Shown in pieces: positions 1,236 to 8,097 of a stretch of 8,661 nucleotides of DNA; positions within the stretch are counted from its first letter, which is position 1; the number at the start of each line of letters is the position of its first letter. Made by a program: the position numbers and the translations under genes. This DNA comes from Candidatus Alcyoniella australis (GTDB taxonomy: Bacteria > Lernaellota > Lernaellaia > JAVCCG01 > Alcyoniellaceae), in the NCBI GenBank assembly GCA_030765605.1, contig JAVCCG010000010.1:1-8661 (forward strand), written 5' to 3'. Under the pieces are notes generated by a model. It saw nothing but the letters and a program-made list of their open reading frames with translations, was not told the DNA's origin and made no database searches.

Positions 1236-1736
1236 ATGAGCGATGCCAATAACGACGTTCCGGACGCCTCAATCCTACGCGACGCCCTGGCCAAGCTGCA
1301 CTACGGGCTGTACATCCTGACCGTGGAGGAGGGCGGCGAAGTCAACGGCATGCCCGTAAGCTGGGTCAGCCAGGTGAGCTTCGACCCGCCGCTGGTGATG
1401 ATCGCGGTCCACTCCAGCCGCTACACCCACCAGATGCTCGAATCGGCCGGAAGCTTTGCGCTGAACCTGCTCAAGCCCGAGCAGGCCGCGCTGGTGCCGC
1501 GCTTTAAACTCAAGGGCGAGCAGCGCAGCCACAAGTTCGACGGGCTGGAGCTCGAGCGCGGAAGCATCGGTGCGCCGCTGCTGCGCGACAGCGTTGCGAG
1601 CATTGAGTGCGAAATAGTTAAAACGTTCGTGCCTGGAGACCACACGCTGTTCTTCGGCCTGGTGCGCGACGTGCGGCTCAACGAGCCGGACTCGCCCGTG
1701 CTCGGAGTCGACGACTTCGGCAAGGGCTACGGCTGA
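1236..1736 (+). CDS. Flavin reductase-domain protein (flavoredoxin-like, FMN-binding)
   Basis: 166-residue single-domain protein of the flavin reductase-like FMN-binding split-barrel family, which includes flavoredoxins, the flavin reductase components of monooxygenases, and NADH:FMN reductases. The start ATG at 1236 has a strong SD (AAGGGGGAAG, 1224-1233). Residues 19-58 (AKLHYGLYILTV ... NGMPVSWVSQVSFDPPLVMIAV) match the N-terminal FMN-phosphate and isoalloxazine-binding stretch. AGSFALNLL (71-79) and GDHTLFFGLV (134-143) are the other family landmarks. The C-terminus ends GKGYG, resembling the usual terminal gly/tyr-rich strand. The electron donor and acceptor cannot be deduced; no partner oxygenase or rubredoxin is next to it. 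It stands alone between the permease operon and a convergent minus-strand block. Three hairpin repeats begin directly after its stop codon. Confidence 0.9.
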   Translation: MSDANNDVPDASILRDALAKLHYGLYILTVEEGGEVNGMPVSWVSQVSFDPPLVMIAVHSSRYTHQMLESAGSFALNLLKPEQAALVPRFKLKGEQRSHKFDGLELERGSIGAPLLRDSVASIECEIVKTFVPGDHTLFFGLVRDVRLNEPDSPVLGVDDFGKGYG

Positions 1737-1766
1737 CCCGGCTTTGAGCCGGGCACAAAACTCGCG
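1737..1766. repeat. Hairpin-plus-tail repeat, unit 1
   Basis: Perfect 7-bp stem CCCGGCT/AGCCGGG (1737-1743 and 1747-1753) with a 3-base loop TTG, followed by the tail CACAAAACTCGCG (1754-1766). It begins on the base right after the flavin reductase stop codon. The tail CAAnnCTCGCG is shared with two more units downstream. There is no T-run, so a classical terminator is not supported. It resembles a small REP-like palindromic element. Confidence 0.6.
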
Positions 1767-1795
1767 GCGGCTTGGAGCCGCCACAAGACTCGCGC
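1766..1795. repeat. Hairpin-plus-tail repeat, unit 2
   Basis: Perfect 7-bp stem GGCGGCT/AGCCGCC (1766-1772 and 1776-1782) with loop TGG, followed by ACAAGACTCGCGC (1783-1795). The stem differs from unit 1 at its outer pairs, but both arms change together, so pairing is kept while the tail stays nearly identical. It abuts unit 1 directly. Confidence 0.6.
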
Positions 1796-1833
1796 AGCAC
1801 GATAATCATTGAGCAACGCCCCACCCCGCGTAG

Positions 1834-1863
1834 CCGACTTTTAGTCGGGGGCAAGTCTCGCGC
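1834..1863. repeat. Hairpin-plus-tail repeat, unit 3
   Basis: Perfect 6-bp stem CCGACT/AGTCGG (1834-1839 and 1843-1848) with loop TTT, then GGGCAAGTCTCGCGC (1849-1863). Relative to units 1 and 2, the inner G-C pair has become A-T on both arms, a compensatory change. The tail CAAGTCTCGCGC aligns with the tails of the other units. It is separated from unit 2 by 38 bases of unrelated sequence. Confidence 0.55.
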
Positions 1864-1869
1864 CTACCC

Positions 1870-1891
1870 AATATTGTTGAAAAACAATATT
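1870..1891. terminator. AT-rich perfect hairpin at the convergent junction (possible bidirectional terminator)
   Basis: A perfect 9-bp stem AATATTGTT/AACAATATT (1870-1878 and 1883-1891) closes a GAAA tetraloop as read on the plus strand. It lies 6 bases beyond the stop codon of the minus-strand radical SAM gene and downstream of the plus-strand flavin reductase gene. The place fits a terminator for convergent transcription. No T-run follows on either strand, so intrinsic termination is uncertain; it could instead protect mRNA 3' ends. Confidence 0.4.
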
Positions 1892-1896
1892 ACCCC

Positions 1897-3321
1897 TCAC
1901 CCCCCGTTGCGTCCGAGTCGCGGTAGCAGCACCAGGGCGCGTTTGATGTCGGCCCACAGGCCGCGTCCGCGGCTGCGGATTAGCCGTCGCAGTACAACGC
2001 CGGGCCGCAAGTAGAACTGGCGGTTGAAGCGTCGCAGCAGCGCCTCGAGCCGACGGCGGGTGATCGCCCCGGGCCAGGCCGGCGGATCGAAATCGGGTCG
2101 CGGATTTGCTGCGAAGCGTTGCCAGTAATCCTCGCTGATCACGCCCTGGGCCAGCGCCCGTTCGTAGATCTTGGTCGCGGGGTAGGGGATGTAGATTGCG
2201 GTATGCACCATGTCGGGGTTGAGTTCGCGGGCCAGGGAGATGCTTCGGCGCACGTGGCCCTCGGTCTCGCCGGGATTGCCGAGCATGAAGTACGCCAGAT
2301 GCGGCAGCCCGACCTCGCGTGTGAGGGCGAAGGTCTCGCGCACTTGCTCGAGGGTGTAGGGCTTGCCCAACGTGCGCAGCACGTCTGGGTCCGAGGCCTC
2401 GACCCCGTAGGTGATCATGTCGCACCCCGCGGCCTTGAGCGCCAGCAGCAGCTCGTGATCCACGGTCTGCACCGTGGCACGCGCGGTGAAGCGCAACGGC
2501 AGCCGCTCGCGGACCATCCCGTCGCAGATTTGCAAAACGCGCTCGCGGTCGATGGTGAACACTTCGTCGTAGATCAGCAGGTAGCGAATGCCCATCGCCA
2601 CGCACTCGCGCAGCTCCTCGATCACATACTCGGCCGAGTGCGCGCGGAAGCGTTTGCCCGTGATCGAGCGCGAGCAGAATGCGCAGCGGAAAGGGCAACC
2701 GCGGCTGGTGATTATAATCGACAGCGGTCGCAGGTCGGTGATCAGCGAGCCGTAGCGCGCGGTGTCCACCAGGTCGCGCGCCGGTCGCGGAATCGAGTCC
2801 AGCTGCTCGATGCGCGGCGGCATCGGGTTGGTCTCGATCCGTCCATCGACTTGGCGCACCAGGCCCGGCGCGTCGTCGATTTTCCCGTTGCCCGACAGCC
2901 GTTCGAGCAGCGCGGGCAGCGTGGTCTCGCCCTCGCCGATCAGCAGCATGTCCAGCGGCTCGAGGGCGATGGTCTCACGCGGATAGAGGAAGGGTTGGAG
3001 CCCGCCCATCACCACCGGCGCGTGGGGCACGGCAGCGCGCGCCGCGGCCGCGGCGTCCAGGGCGTCGGGCATGCTGAACGAGACCGCGGTTACGCCCACC
3101 AGGTCCGGATGCCACTGTTGCAGACGCGCGCCGATCTGGTCGGGCCGCAGGTTGTCCAATGCGGCGTCGATGATCAGCACCTCGTGCCCGGCCTGACGCA
3201 CTGCGGCGGCCACGTACATCAGTCCGATCGGAGGATTGATCCCGCGGATGCGTTCGACCTCGCGCGGCAGGTTGGCGCCGATCATCCGGCGTTCGGCGGG
3301 CTGGATCAGCGCTACCCGCAT
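1897..3321 (-). CDS. B12-binding-domain radical SAM protein (first of tandem pair by coordinate)
   Basis: 474-residue protein with a cobalamin-binding-type Rossmann domain followed by a radical SAM core. The ATG at 3321 is chosen because it shares its A with the stop of the upstream radical SAM gene (TGATG); a TTG 18 bases earlier is a weaker alternative. Residues 1-140 look like the B12-binding domain (MRVALIQP, NPPIGLMYVAAAVRQAGHEVLIIDA, VVMGGLQPFLYP, LLIGEGETTLPALLE). No DxHxxG cobalt-ligand motif is seen, as is common in BchE/HpnP-like relatives. The [4Fe-4S] motif CxxxCxxC is C209-C213-C216 in SRGCPFRCAFCS. The core continues through YDEVFTID, ITYGVEASD and YFMLGNPGET (~345-353), and the C-terminus has NRQFYLRPGVVLRRL (433-447). 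Members of this class methylate or rearrange lipids, pigments and antibiotics. The substrate here is unknown. Confidence 0.92.
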   Translation of the reverse strand: MRVALIQPAERRMIGANLPREVERIRGINPPIGLMYVAAAVRQAGHEVLIIDAALDNLRPDQIGARLQQWHPDLVGVTAVSFSMPDALDAAAAARAAVPHAPVVMGGLQPFLYPRETIALEPLDMLLIGEGETTLPALLERLSGNGKIDDAPGLVRQVDGRIETNPMPPRIEQLDSIPRPARDLVDTARYGSLITDLRPLSIIITSRGCPFRCAFCSRSITGKRFRAHSAEYVIEELRECVAMGIRYLLIYDEVFTIDRERVLQICDGMVRERLPLRFTARATVQTVDHELLLALKAAGCDMITYGVEASDPDVLRTLGKPYTLEQVRETFALTREVGLPHLAYFMLGNPGETEGHVRRSISLARELNPDMVHTAIYIPYPATKIYERALAQGVISEDYWQRFAANPRPDFDPPAWPGAITRRRLEALLRRFNRQFYLRPGVVLRRLIRSRGRGLWADIKRALVLLPRLGRNGG

Positions 3322-4700
3322 CAGACGCCCACCAGCCAACGCATGATGCGCAGCAGCAGATAGACCAGGTGCCGCGGCCCGCGCACGTTGCGCAGGATCT
3401 CGATGATCACCCGCGGCCGCGCGTGGAAGCGCAGCAGGGCCCAGCGCTGTTCGTTCTTTAATCTACTCGCGGTGGTCCCCTCGGGCACGAACGCCACCTC
3501 GGCCAGGGTCGGCGCGTCGCGCCGCCAGGTTCCCGCGTAGTCGCCGCACTCCAGAGCCTCGTAGGCCGAGGTGCCGGGGAAGGGGTGGAACAGCATGAAG
3601 TGCCCCACGGCCAGCGGCAGCTCCATTGCCAGCTTCAGCGACTGTCGACGCTCCTGCCGCGTCTCGGTGGGGAAGCCGTAGAGGAAGAAGCCGCGCAGCA
3701 GAAATCCCTCCTCGTGCAGCATTTGCGCGGTGCTGCGCACCTGCTCCACGGTCAGGTTCTTGCGGATCAGGCTCAGCATTCGGTTTGAGCCGGATTCGAT
3801 CCCGAGGTTCATCGAGTAGCAGCCCGCGCGAAACATCAGCCGCACCAGCTCGCGGTCGAGGGTGTCGATCCGCAGGCCGTTGGGGCACAGCCACCACAGG
3901 CGCGGACCGGCCAGGATCCGTTCGCAAAAGGCGCGCACGTAATCGCCGTCGTGGGTGAAGTTGTCGTCCACCACGTGGATCTCGTTGATCCCGTAGTCGC
4001 GCCGCAGCAGCTCGATCTCCTCGATCACGCTCTCCAACGGGCGGTAGCGCACGCGGCGGCCCGAGATCGCCGAGGCTCCGCAGAAGGTGCAGGGGTGCGG
4101 GCAGCCGCGGCTGATCGAGATCGGCGCCAGCGGGGTTGCGCGGTAGAACGCTCCCTGGGGCGCGGGGGGCGCCAGGTCGGGTCGCAGCAGATCCCAGCGC
4201 GGCAGCGGCACCTGCGCCAGGTCCACGCGGTCCAGCGGATTGGACTCGATTCCCGCATCAGTGCGGCGCACCAGCCCGGCCACCGAGGCGTAGTCGCTGC
4301 TGTTGTTTGCGATCAGCTCGATCAGCGCGGGCAGGGCGTTCTCCGCCTCGCCGCGGATCATCCAGTCGACCAAGTCGCCGTAGAATTCCCAGGCGCCCGC
4401 CGGGTCGGCGCTGGGGTCTGCGCCGCCGAGCACGATCGTCGCGTTCGGAGCAGCGTTACGCGCGGTCTGGATATAGGGTAAGTCCAGGCGGCGGCCGTAG
4501 GTGTTGACCTGGAAGCCGATCAGCTTGGGCCGAAACGACTCGATCTTGCTTGCCAGCCGCGCGGGCTTGGCGTGCAGGCGGATCGCGTCGAACAGTTCGA
4601 CCTGGTGGCGTTCGCTCAGGGCCGCGGCGAGAAAGCCCAGGCCGAGGTTGGGTTGGATCGAGTCTGAGAGCTCGCGGGGTTTTACCAGCAGGACGCGCAT
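3321..4700 (-). CDS. B12-binding-domain radical SAM protein (upstream member of tandem pair)
   Basis: 459-residue protein with the same architecture as its downstream neighbour but clearly diverged. Residues 1-130 form a B12-binding-like Rossmann domain (MRVLLVKP, NLGLGFLAAALSERHQVELFDA, TIVLGGADPSADP, MIRGEAENALPALIE). A DxHxxG motif is not visible, so cobalamin binding is inferred from the family. The iron-sulfur motif is C200-C204-C207 in SRGCPHPCTFCG. VVDDNFT (243-249), NLGIESGSNRMLSLIRKNLTVEQV (298-321), GFFLYGFPTET (337-347) and HPFPGTSAYE (372-381) are typical of the radical SAM barrel in this class. The ATG at 4700 is the family-typical start, though its SD is weak. It overlaps the next gene by TGATG and lies 66 bases after the CpxP-like gene with no terminator between. 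Substrate unknown. Confidence 0.92.
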   Translation of the reverse strand: MRVLLVKPRELSDSIQPNLGLGFLAAALSERHQVELFDAIRLHAKPARLASKIESFRPKLIGFQVNTYGRRLDLPYIQTARNAAPNATIVLGGADPSADPAGAWEFYGDLVDWMIRGEAENALPALIELIANNSSDYASVAGLVRRTDAGIESNPLDRVDLAQVPLPRWDLLRPDLAPPAPQGAFYRATPLAPISISRGCPHPCTFCGASAISGRRVRYRPLESVIEEIELLRRDYGINEIHVVDDNFTHDGDYVRAFCERILAGPRLWWLCPNGLRIDTLDRELVRLMFRAGCYSMNLGIESGSNRMLSLIRKNLTVEQVRSTAQMLHEEGFLLRGFFLYGFPTETRQERRQSLKLAMELPLAVGHFMLFHPFPGTSAYEALECGDYAGTWRRDAPTLAEVAFVPEGTTASRLKNEQRWALLRFHARPRVIIEILRNVRGPRHLVYLLLRIMRWLVGV

Positions 4701-4766: not shown

Positions 4767-5291
4767 TCAGCGCATGGGCGTGCGATTGCCCATACCGCGC
4801 GCCGGACGGTCGCTGTGCTTGATATCGTAGATGATCTTTTGGATCTCCTCCTGGAAGCGGATTTCGAACGCAATGAACTTCATCATTCGCTCTGTGTCGA
4901 GCACCTTGGCGACCGCGACGTATTCCTCGTGATGCAGGTCGATGATCTTGTGATCGATCTGGGACGAGCGATCGATCAGCTTGTTCAGCTCCTCGGCGGT
5001 CAGCGGCTTGTCCTGGCTGATCGCGGTCGCCAGCCCGTGTCGAATCTGGCGCTGCTCGCGCAGCAGCTCGTTGATCTGGTCCTCGTATTGCTGCATCACC
5101 GGGAACAGTTTGGCCGAGAGCTCGGTATCGAGCTCGAGGAACTCGGTTATCTTCCAGATGCGGATCGACTGGATCCGCTCTTCAAGCTGCTTTTCCTGTC
5201 CGCCCCCGCGCCGTTGTCCGGGCGCGGCCATGCACGGCGCGGCCAGGATCAGCATTAACGCGATCGCCGTTAATCCATGCAGCCATTTCAT
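4767..5291 (-). CDS. Secreted CpxP/Spy-like periplasmic protein (heavy-metal sensor/resistance type)
   Basis: 174-residue predicted periplasmic helical protein. Residues 1-22 form a signal peptide (MKWLHG, then a hydrophobic stretch to ~18). Cleavage near Cys20-Met-Ala-Ala is likely; the residue before Cys20 is proline, so a lipobox is not convincing. After a Gly/Arg/Gln-rich linker, residues 34-158 are charged and almost certainly alpha-helical. Two LDTE motifs (54-57 and 131-134) stand where CpxP/Spy proteins carry LTxxQ motifs, and FIAFEIRFQEE (139-149) matches the second helical half. Such proteins often act with an ECF sigma/anti-sigma pair as envelope or metal sensors (CnrX/NccX-like) or as chaperones. 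Its SD (GGGGGGA, 5299-5305) lies inside the last codons of the anti-sigma gene, and only 4 bases separate the two. Family assignment is by pattern, so function is moderate confidence. Confidence 0.75.
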   Translation of the reverse strand: MKWLHGLTAIALMLILAAPCMAAPGQRRGGGQEKQLEERIQSIRIWKITEFLELDTELSAKLFPVMQQYEDQINELLREQRQIRHGLATAISQDKPLTAEELNKLIDRSSQIDHKIIDLHHEEYVAVAKVLDTERMMKFIAFEIRFQEEIQKIIYDIKHSDRPARGMGNRTPMR

Positions 5292-5295
5292 AGGT

Positions 5296-5970
5296 CTATC
5301 CCCCCAGGGTGCTGTCGATTGTATACGAGTTGAGTCGCTCGATGAGCATCTCGATTTGTTCGTCGTCCAGGTCGTAGAGCAACTGTATATCCCCTGCCTC
5401 GGCGATGCTCAGCTGATCGATCTGCGTCGAATCGAGGTCCTCGCTGATCTGCTGGGCCAGCAGGTCGTCCAGCTGTGCCACCTGCGTATCGTCCAGCTCG
5501 TCGATCGTCACCAGCTGCAACTGCTCGACGTCCAGGGCGTTGAGTGCGTCGAGCTCGTCTGACTGTGCAGCCTGCTGCGGCTGGTCGGACTGCGCTGTTT
5601 GCTGCAACGCGGGCTGGGTCGGTTCGAAGCTGATCAGTCCGATGATCAGCGCGGCCACGATCAGCGCGGCCGCCGGAACCAGGGTGCGCGTCCCGAAACG
5701 CTCCCAGGCTAATTGCCACCACGGCGCGGACTGCGCCTGCTCGATTACCCTGGTCGTTAGCTCCACGCGATGGTTGGGGCTCGGATCGTTGCGCAGTATT
5801 TTGCCCCAGTCGCCAAGCAGCGCGCGCTGGGCTTCGAGTTGTTCGCGGCACACGGCGCACTGCTCCAGGTGCTGATGCACGGCCCGGCTCTCAGCCTCGG
5901 TCAGCTCCTGCTCGGCGCCGGCGGCCAGCAGGTCGAGCAGCGGCTCGATCCACTCGCATTGGGGTTTCAT
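5296..5970 (-). CDS. Transmembrane zinc-finger anti-sigma factor with LDxxQ-repeat periplasmic domain
   Basis: 224-residue single-pass membrane protein expected to hold the adjacent ECF sigma factor inactive at the inner membrane. The N-terminal cytoplasmic domain has the zinc-binding anti-sigma pattern with Cys5 and His34-x3-Cys38-x2-Cys41 (HLEQCAVC). One membrane helix spans ~97-115 (TLVPAAALIVAALIIGLIS). After a Gln-rich linker, the periplasmic part (~137-217) is strongly acidic. It contains four spaced motifs of the form LDxxQ followed by hydrophobic residues (starting at 146, 159, 179 and 201). The ATG at 5970 overlaps the sigma stop (ATGA) and has SD GAGAGG (5979-5984). Coupled translation would keep sigma and anti-sigma balanced. 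Confidence 0.9.
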   Translation of the reverse strand: MKPQCEWIEPLLDLLAAGAEQELTEAESRAVHQHLEQCAVCREQLEAQRALLGDWGKILRNDPSPNHRVELTTRVIEQAQSAPWWQLAWERFGTRTLVPAAALIVAALIIGLISFEPTQPALQQTAQSDQPQQAAQSDELDALNALDVEQLQLVTIDELDDTQVAQLDDLLAQQISEDLDSTQIDQLSIAEAGDIQLLYDLDDEQIEMLIERLNSYTIDSTLGG

Positions 5971-6503
5971 TGCGCCAACCTCTCTTTCAACTTACGCACG
6001 GCGTGATGAAAATTCACCTTGGCCGCGTTCTGCGTTATGCCCAGGGCCTCGCCGATCTGCGCGAAGGGCAGCTCCTCGGCCAGCCGCAGCCGCGCGACTT
6101 GGCCCTGAATCTCGGGAAGCTCGTCCAGCGCCTGATAGAGCATCCGGCGTCGGCGGTCGTGGTCGAGCTGTTCGGCCGTGTGGTCCTCCACGCTTAACCG
6201 TGCTTTGTCCAGCTCCATTCCCTGGTGCCGCGCGCGGTCGCGCAGCCGGTTGCGCGCCTGGTTGACCGTGATGCGATAGAGCCAGGTGCTAAACGCCGAG
6301 CGGCCCGAGAACGTGTGCAGCTTGCGATAGACCCGCACGAAGGTGCTCTGTACTACCTCGTCGGCCTCAGCCGGATCCTTGGTGACCGAAAGGGCGGTGC
6401 GATAAACAAACGCGGTGTAATCCCTGACGATTTGCTCGAACGCCTCGTGTTCGCCCGCCTGAGCGCGCGCCACAGCATCGGTTAGGTCGGGCAGCTTGGT
6501 CAT
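5967..6503 (-). CDS. ECF-family RNA polymerase sigma factor (sigma-70 family)
   Basis: 178-residue ECF sigma factor from the ATG at 6503. Region 2 (~20-90) carries the core-binding and -10 recognition helices, including DEVVQSTFVRVYRKL (49-62) and FSTWLYRITVNQARNRLRDR (71-90). Region 4 (~122-172) ends in a helix-turn-helix, LPFAQIGEALGITQNAAKVNFHHAVRKLKERL, that would read the -35 element. Regions 1 and 3 are absent, as expected for ECF. A GTG start five codons upstream (6518) is possible, but it would fall at or before the transcription start predicted from the promoter at 6524-6550, so the ATG is preferred; neither has a good SD. It is followed by its zinc-finger anti-sigma factor with a 4-base overlap. 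The close ECF group was not determined. Confidence 0.93.
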   Translation of the reverse strand: MTKLPDLTDAVARAQAGEHEAFEQIVRDYTAFVYRTALSVTKDPAEADEVVQSTFVRVYRKLHTFSGRSAFSTWLYRITVNQARNRLRDRARHQGMELDKARLSVEDHTAEQLDHDRRRRMLYQALDELPEIQGQVARLRLAEELPFAQIGEALGITQNAAKVNFHHAVRKLKERLAQ

Positions 6504-6523
6504 CGTGATCACTGACACATGGT

Positions 6524-8005: not shown

Positions 8006-8097
8006 GGAGAGATGACCGAGAGGCCGAAGGTGCTCGCCTGCTAAGCGAGTGTACGCCTAACCGTGTACCGAGGGTTCGAATCCCTCTCTCTCCGCCA
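8006..8097 (+). tRNA. tRNA-Ser, anticodon GCU (reads AGC/AGU)
   Basis: The full cloverleaf is visible. The acceptor stem is GGAGAGA (8006-8012) with TCTCTCC (8087-8093), followed by discriminator G8094 and a genome-encoded CCA (8095-8097). The anticodon stem CTCGC/GCGAG (8033-8037 and 8045-8049) encloses loop CTGCTAA, with anticodon GCT at 8040-8042. A long class II variable arm (about 8050-8069, GTAC pairing GTAC) is diagnostic of serine tRNAs. The T arm is GAGGG/CCCTC (8070-8074 and 8082-8086) around TTCGAAT. It lies next to serS, its charging enzyme. Confidence 0.98.

Follow-up and report, generated by a model that had tools for sequence, protein, structure and literature searches.

The genome of Candidatus Alcyoniella australis contains a new family of repeats of the known REP/BIME kind, in which a tag of its own replaces the usual one. 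Three units of the family lie in the window, the 8,661-nt stretch of contig JAVCCG010000010.1 that we analyzed. The repeats are numerous and intergenic, keep their stem pairing under selection and their tag fixed, stand in tandem and inverted arrangements, and adjoin stop codons; the same genome encodes a REP-associated tyrosine transposase (RAYT) with its catalytic residues in place. We infer that the repeats are mobile. The reading we favor, with a probability of roughly 0.55, is that they are non-autonomous elements of REP/BIME type whose folded single strand and tag would be moved by a Y1 HUH enzyme, with the resident RAYT, acting in trans, as the best candidate.

Three tagged hairpins lie between convergent genes

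The sequence-only reading of the window had described three hairpin-plus-tail units in a convergent intergenic region, and we found all three where it had placed them, at 1737-1862. The flavin reductase-like gene (Flavin_Reduct) ends with the TGA at 1734-1736, directly 5' of the unit 1 hairpin, and a minus-strand gene for a B12-binding radical SAM protein ends at 1897. The features of the region are as follows.

1737-1753, plus strand: unit 1 hairpin, 7-bp stem CCCGGCT/AGCCGGG, loop TTG (sequence, fold, pattern match)
1756-1766, plus strand: unit 1 tag CAAAACTCGCG (sequence, direct-repeat family)
1766-1782, plus strand: unit 2 hairpin, 7-bp stem GGCGGCT/AGCCGCC, loop TGG (sequence, pattern, fold)
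1784-1794, plus strand: unit 2 tag CAAGACTCGCG (sequence, direct-repeat family)
1795-1830, plus strand: 36-nt segment of unit 2 ending CCCCGCG, the conserved third module (covariance-model match)
1834-1848, plus strand: unit 3 hairpin, 6-bp stem CCGACT/AGTCGG, loop TTT (sequence, pattern, fold)
1852-1862, plus strand: unit 3 tag CAAGTCTCGCG (sequence, direct-repeat family)
1870-1891, strand unassigned: AT-rich hairpin AATATTGTT/GAAA/AACAATATT (sequence, fold; parallels elsewhere in the genome)

Base 1766 is common to the unit 1 tag and the unit 2 hairpin. A covariance model of the family matched unit 2 over 1760-1830 with 72.9 bits and unit 3 weakly over 1833-1895; within unit 2, the 36-nt segment could form a second hairpin only poorly. 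After unit 3, the AT-rich hairpin stands in place of the 36-nt segment, before the minus-strand gene. The hairpins and tails had thus been correctly recognized in the sequence-only reading, but the unit had been drawn too short, since its full length is about 71 nt, and the AT-rich hairpin had been overlooked.

The repeat region is more stably folded than shuffled sequence on both strands (z = -3.1 on the plus strand and -3.7 on the minus strand). Searched against Rfam at the gathering score, the window gave a single match, a tRNA at 8006-8094, and none on the repeats; a known RNA family was rejected for them on this search.

The repeats are abundant and confined to the host genome in our comparisons

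We searched the host genome (4,285,834 bases, or 4.29 Mb, in 157 contigs) with a strict pattern, AGNCGN..CAANNCTCGCG, and with a covariance model of 71 positions built from 32 copies aligned without gaps. The strict pattern gave 73 exact matches, compared to 1 for a reversed control pattern, and the model, which scored the first 150 candidates of its initial pass, gave 153 matches at an E-value of 0.01 or better, the best reaching 4.5e-21; the copies therefore number at least 150. A genome-wide search of this kind had been proposed from the window alone as the way to recognize a REP family, and it returned at least 150 copies, intergenic, in a genome with one RAYT gene; that the three units might have no further copies is clearly contradicted by both searches. 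Several copies were found within a few hundred bases of the ends of eight contigs (C5, C65, C76, C92, C104, C115, C129 and C136), and many of the arrays sit close to such ends. It looks as though the assembly had been interrupted at the repeats, and the true copy number is probably higher.

In 40 other genomes, including six class-mates, the covariance model gave only marginal matches (E-values of 0.002 to 0.008), and in the six class-mate genomes the strict pattern stayed at the control level. These six, from the same class but from other orders, are the nearest relatives in the comparison. Absence from the other genomes is as expected of species-specific REPs. We also considered spread in viruses or plasmids and set it aside: one narrow pattern had zero matches in viral contigs, and there were zero pattern matches in plasmids.

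Stem pairing is selected while the tag is kept by sequence

In the 32-copy alignment, four of the seven hairpin pairs change on both sides, and no shuffle equals the observed covariation score. Because the aligned copies had been chosen partly by their stem, we repeated the pairing test on 176 tags collected irrespective of stem. A Watson-Crick stem of at least 6 bp with a 3-nt loop was present at 137 of these tags, compared to a mean of 0.66 and a maximum of 4 in shuffles. When the 3' arms of 160 apex-aligned stems were re-dealt 2000 times, perfect 6-bp pairing (G-U allowed) arose in a mean of 44 and at most 62 stems, against 141 in the genome. The matched changes of the two arms first noticed in three copies therefore hold genome-wide. 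These counts are not independent events, the copies being kin by descent; several differing stem types, each paired, remain.

Four stem types predominate: GCACCT/AGGTGC, GCGGCT/AGCCGC, CCGGCT/AGCCGG and GCAGCT/AGCTGC. Across units, the apical C-T/A-G and the TNG pattern of the loop hardly vary. On the 3' side of the hairpin stands the conserved, unpaired tag CAANNCTCGCG, which reads CGCGAGNNTTG on the minus strand; its invariance is partly by construction, as units were picked by their tag, and the model found more copies with small departures from it. Selection is thus on pairing in the stem, while the tag is kept by its sequence.

Units of about 71 nt form tandem and inverted arrays

The full unit of about 71 nt consists of a perfect hairpin, the tag, and a 36-nt segment ending CCGCG. 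The segment 3' of the tag is exactly 36 nt long in 66 of 81 copies, and often resembles TAGTTCGCTGGTCGT-AATGCA-ACGACCCACCCCGCG. This form could fold into a second hairpin, a candidate that we regard as weak and uncertain because just 74% of the cells pair.

Units are found alone, in head-to-tail series of as many as seven, and in inverted pairs joined at CCGCG(T/A)CGCGG. Among the 150 model matches listed, 35 have another tagged unit within 60 nt downstream, and 17 lead into CGCGG and then a tag in inverted orientation, in most cases 37-38 nt further along. Some copies run on into modules with AT-rich hairpins, such as TAATAATGTT...AACATTATT or AAAGATCG...CGATCTTT; the AT-rich hairpin of the window is akin to the former kind. 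This arrangement is in the mosaic style of BIMEs and REPINs. Modules of the AAAGATCG...CGATCTTT kind recur on the 3' side of units (for example at loci L104, L111, L148 and L168), where they are followed by GTGTGT and a longer common sequence.

The repeats lie between genes and often abut stop codons

We predicted genes in 302 kb around the repeats with our own codon-usage script, which in the window recovers the Pfam-supported flavin reductase and radical SAM genes. By these predictions, overlap with a gene exceeds 25 nt for one of the 150 model matches listed, and of 185 hairpin units 4 fall within a gene. The 139 units with both neighbors predicted comprise 70 between convergent, 58 between co-directional and 11 between divergent genes, counts that carry no background rate because the stretches were picked for containing repeats.

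Among 60 cases with a same-strand stop codon within 100 nt, the first hairpin begins at -1 to +4 of that stop in 26 (P = 1.6e-16 compared to uniform placement), and unit 1 of the window is likewise flush with its stop codon. A hairpin that starts at -1 provides the final base of the stop codon. The other approaches are looser: between the tag side and a convergent stop there are always at least 19 nt, and where the hairpin side faces a gene start rather than a gene end, as in 51 units, at least 32 nt separate it from that start. TAG is the stop codon at 14 of the 26 flush sites versus 64 of 190 (P = 0.05), an enrichment that we set aside. The adjacency to stop codons follows the same tendency as that of published REPs, which are located no more than 20 bp from the 3' ends of genes and whose GTAG termini sometimes supply stop codons (PMC3733652); in E. 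coli, REPs stall ribosomes where they lie within 15 nt of a stop codon, and they stabilize mRNA (PMC12306157).

An intrinsic-terminator scan of window positions 1650-1950 found no plus-strand terminator, and a classic intrinsic terminator for the upstream gene is rejected, since the hairpin is followed by the tag, with no T-tract in the sense of the gene. The suggestion that the units are RNA 3'-end elements, raised in the sequence-only reading, fits their position behind stop codons, although a T-tract is lacking. Judged from position, an effect of the repeats on mRNA 3' ends is possible.

The host genome encodes one RAYT, without flanking repeats

A PF01797 profile search identified exactly one Y1 transposase gene in the host genome.

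L031:1354-1923, minus strand (contig C95): RAYT, 190 aa (PF01797, NF047646)

The protein scores 146 bits against NF047646 (cut-off 80) and matches E. coli TnpA-REP (4er8) with an E-value of 1.4e-21. In the alignment to 4er8 it keeps the HUH histidines, the catalytic tyrosine (E. coli 115) and the asparagine at E. coli 119; on this alignment, the RAYT is intact and has its catalytic residues. Where E. coli has Q95, E100 and R104, residues that are reported to take part in reading the GTAG guide or to be conserved with it (PMC8266576, PMC6006769), it carries R, N and C. These residues fit a tag other than GTAG, and also fit a RAYT subclass without REPs.

RAYTs presumed to mobilize REPs are usually flanked by them (PMC3733652, PMC6006769). 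At the host RAYT locus we found no hairpin of 7 bp or longer, and the nearest full repeat copies are about 3.7 kb away. The flanks of the gene are not repeated, and a search of a collection of genome contigs with the RAYT protein gave only two distant relatives. We rejected the locus as a REPtron or a TIRtron, since hairpins do not flank it, its flanks are not repeated and none of its terminal inverted repeats is convincing. A decayed half-copy of the repeat, GCCCGCAAAGCTCGG, lies at L031:1161-1175 on contig C95, directly after the stop codon of a gene convergent with the RAYT gene and about 175 nt from the RAYT 3' end; as a link between the two it is suggestive at most.

Class-mate genomes present a different picture. 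Matching hairpins stand in inverted orientation on both sides of the RAYT gene at six loci (L180, L181, L182, L183, L186 and L188) in four genomes (G001, G003, G004 and G005), and a seventh locus, L187, which is near a contig end, has no flanking hairpins. The six loci are apparently REPtrons, whose predicted tags are other than GTAG and vary between the genomes. The flanking hairpins have a conserved extension, as in the GGGAGC-GCAGGCG hairpins of L181 and the TCCTGGGA-GCGGGCC hairpins of L186. The earlier suggestion of mobilization by a RAYT thus gains from the one intact gene in the host genome, but the arrangement in which a RAYT is flanked by its own REPs, present at these six class-mate loci, is absent from the host.

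The family resembles known REPs but has its own tag

Compared with described families, the repeats have a palindrome conserved in its pairing, an unpaired conserved motif at one foot of the hairpin, and many, mostly extragenic copies, as REPs do; they form pairs of inverted units at regular spacing, as BIMEs and REPINs do; and their genome encodes an intact RAYT, as expected of a REPtron, although copies of the repeat do not flank that gene. The tag is the point of departure. GTAG REPs carry GTAG or GTGG 0-2 nt 5' of the hairpin. In a search for GTAG and CTAC, neither occurs within 8 nt of either hairpin foot in any of 164 units, and a GTAG REP is rejected on this basis; immediately 3' of the tag, 45 of 181 units do have GTAG, which is not fixed there. 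Only 4 of 164 units have CGTC or its complement near a hairpin foot, and a CGTC REP is likewise rejected. Since the repeats pass every structural test for REPs and BIMEs and fail the tests for a GTAG or CGTC tag and for a REPtron, we file them as REP/BIME-type repeats with their own tag. The proposal of a REP-like element, made from three copies, is borne out by copy number, intergenic placement, the hairpin with its fixed tag, tandem and inverted arrangement, and location at gene 3' ends.

Like the GTAG REPs that occur with a RAYT in E. coli and Pseudomonas (GTAG-1), the repeats combine a hairpin and an unpaired foot tag in many intergenic copies, single or in inverted pairs, and lie near gene 3' ends, where they sometimes provide the stop codon (PMC3733652), in a genome with a RAYT. 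They differ from them in the tag itself, CGCGAGNNTTG, in the additional 36-nt segment, and in a RAYT without flanking copies. With CGTC REPs they share the absence of an adjoining transposase gene (PMC3733652), but not the CGTC near the hairpin foot. The atypical REP-like hairpins of TnpA-Y1 subclass 2.6 and class 3 are also repeated hairpins without GT[AG]G (PMC6006769); those were identified beside transposase genes, whereas the RAYT here has no flanking copies. Finally, inverted unit pairs at fixed spacing and mosaic arrays recall REPINs and BIMEs, from which the family differs in its joint, CCGCG(T/A)CGCGG, and in its head-to-tail tandems, which are also common.

A model for dispersal, and its alternatives

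On the minus strand, 5'-CGCGAGNNTTG is followed after a few nucleotides by the hairpin, and an enzyme could read the hairpin together with the fixed, unpaired tag. The repeat strand would fold while single-stranded; a Y1 HUH enzyme would bind hairpin and tag, cut and rejoin the strand, and a copy would land elsewhere. The best candidate for this enzyme is the single resident RAYT acting in trans. Copies would persist between genes, chiefly behind stop codons, where a stable hairpin may be harmless or may act on the mRNA 3' end. Movement as a folded single strand by an HUH enzyme is probable, and mobilization by the resident RAYT in particular is plausible. Against the RAYT we counted that it lacks the flanking repeats that class-mate RAYTs have, that its flanks are not repeated, that the tag is neither GTAG nor CGTC, and that its changed guide residues also fit a RAYT subclass without REPs.

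The lack of flanking repeats and the non-GTAG tag also favor a REP-type family spread by another agent, either a different transposase or a RAYT since lost. The CGTC REPs, for which the literature describes no associated transposase (PMC3733652), offer a precedent for such a family, and the one intact RAYT in the genome argues against it; we consider this reading possible, if doubtful. A primary role at RNA 3' ends, in which the element blocks 3' exonucleases, or slows or aids termination, and is kept by selection with dispersal secondary, would explain why the hairpin is on the gene side of the unit and so often at -1 to +4 of the stop (26 of 60), and it is consistent with the compensatory stem changes and with the stalling of ribosomes and stabilization of mRNA by E. 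coli REPs near stops (PMC12306157). Such a role has no need of long tandem arrays and inverted pairs, however, and the 51 units whose hairpin side faces a gene start, as well as the lack of a T-tract 3' of the hairpin when read with the gene, speak against it; the position bias could equally come from survival of insertions. We judge this role unlikely as the primary one.

Still less probable is a putative binding site, dispersed genome-wide, for a chromosomal protein such as gyrase, an IHF-like protein or another nucleoid protein. E. coli REPs bind proteins of these kinds (PMC6006769), and a fixed tag and hairpin in many dispersed intergenic copies could suit such a site, but the stem retains its pairing rather than its sequence, which favors a folded single strand over a site bound as duplex. 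Chance palindromes in a GC-rich intergenic region would be easiest to imagine for units this short in a GC-rich genome. The control pattern (73 matches versus 1), the shuffles (137 of 176 tags with a stem of at least 6 bp versus 0.7), E-values down to 4.5e-21 and the arm-dealing test rule out chance or composition, to which we assign practically no weight.

This family carries tagged REP repeats into a bacterial class from which few members have been sequenced. Its tag differs from those of both large superfamilies described so far, its stems document compensatory change clearly, and the host genome offers a single candidate RAYT, with guide-contact residues unlike those of E. coli. The ordinary RAYT-plus-hairpin loci of the class-mates offer a comparison, and both the choice of guide tag by the RAYT and its action in trans are directly testable. 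Tight placement behind stop codons makes the family a good case for separating REPs that act on mRNA 3' ends from REPs that merely survive there. A broader and rather speculative extension is that the compound units of about 71 nt, with their tag CGCGAGNNTTG, might represent a further large class of tagged REPs flush with stops, moved by a trans-acting RAYT with altered guide recognition or by another enzyme, and forming the 3' ends of numerous mRNAs in the lineage; we think this improbable as a whole.

Other genes in the window

On the minus strand at 1897-4700, two neighboring B12-binding radical SAM genes lie in tandem. Further along the same strand, at 4767-6518, a gene for a sigma-70-like factor is followed by a zf-HC2 gene (zinc-finger, anti-sigma-like) and a gene with a Metal_resist domain, a set that is likely an ECF sigma operon.
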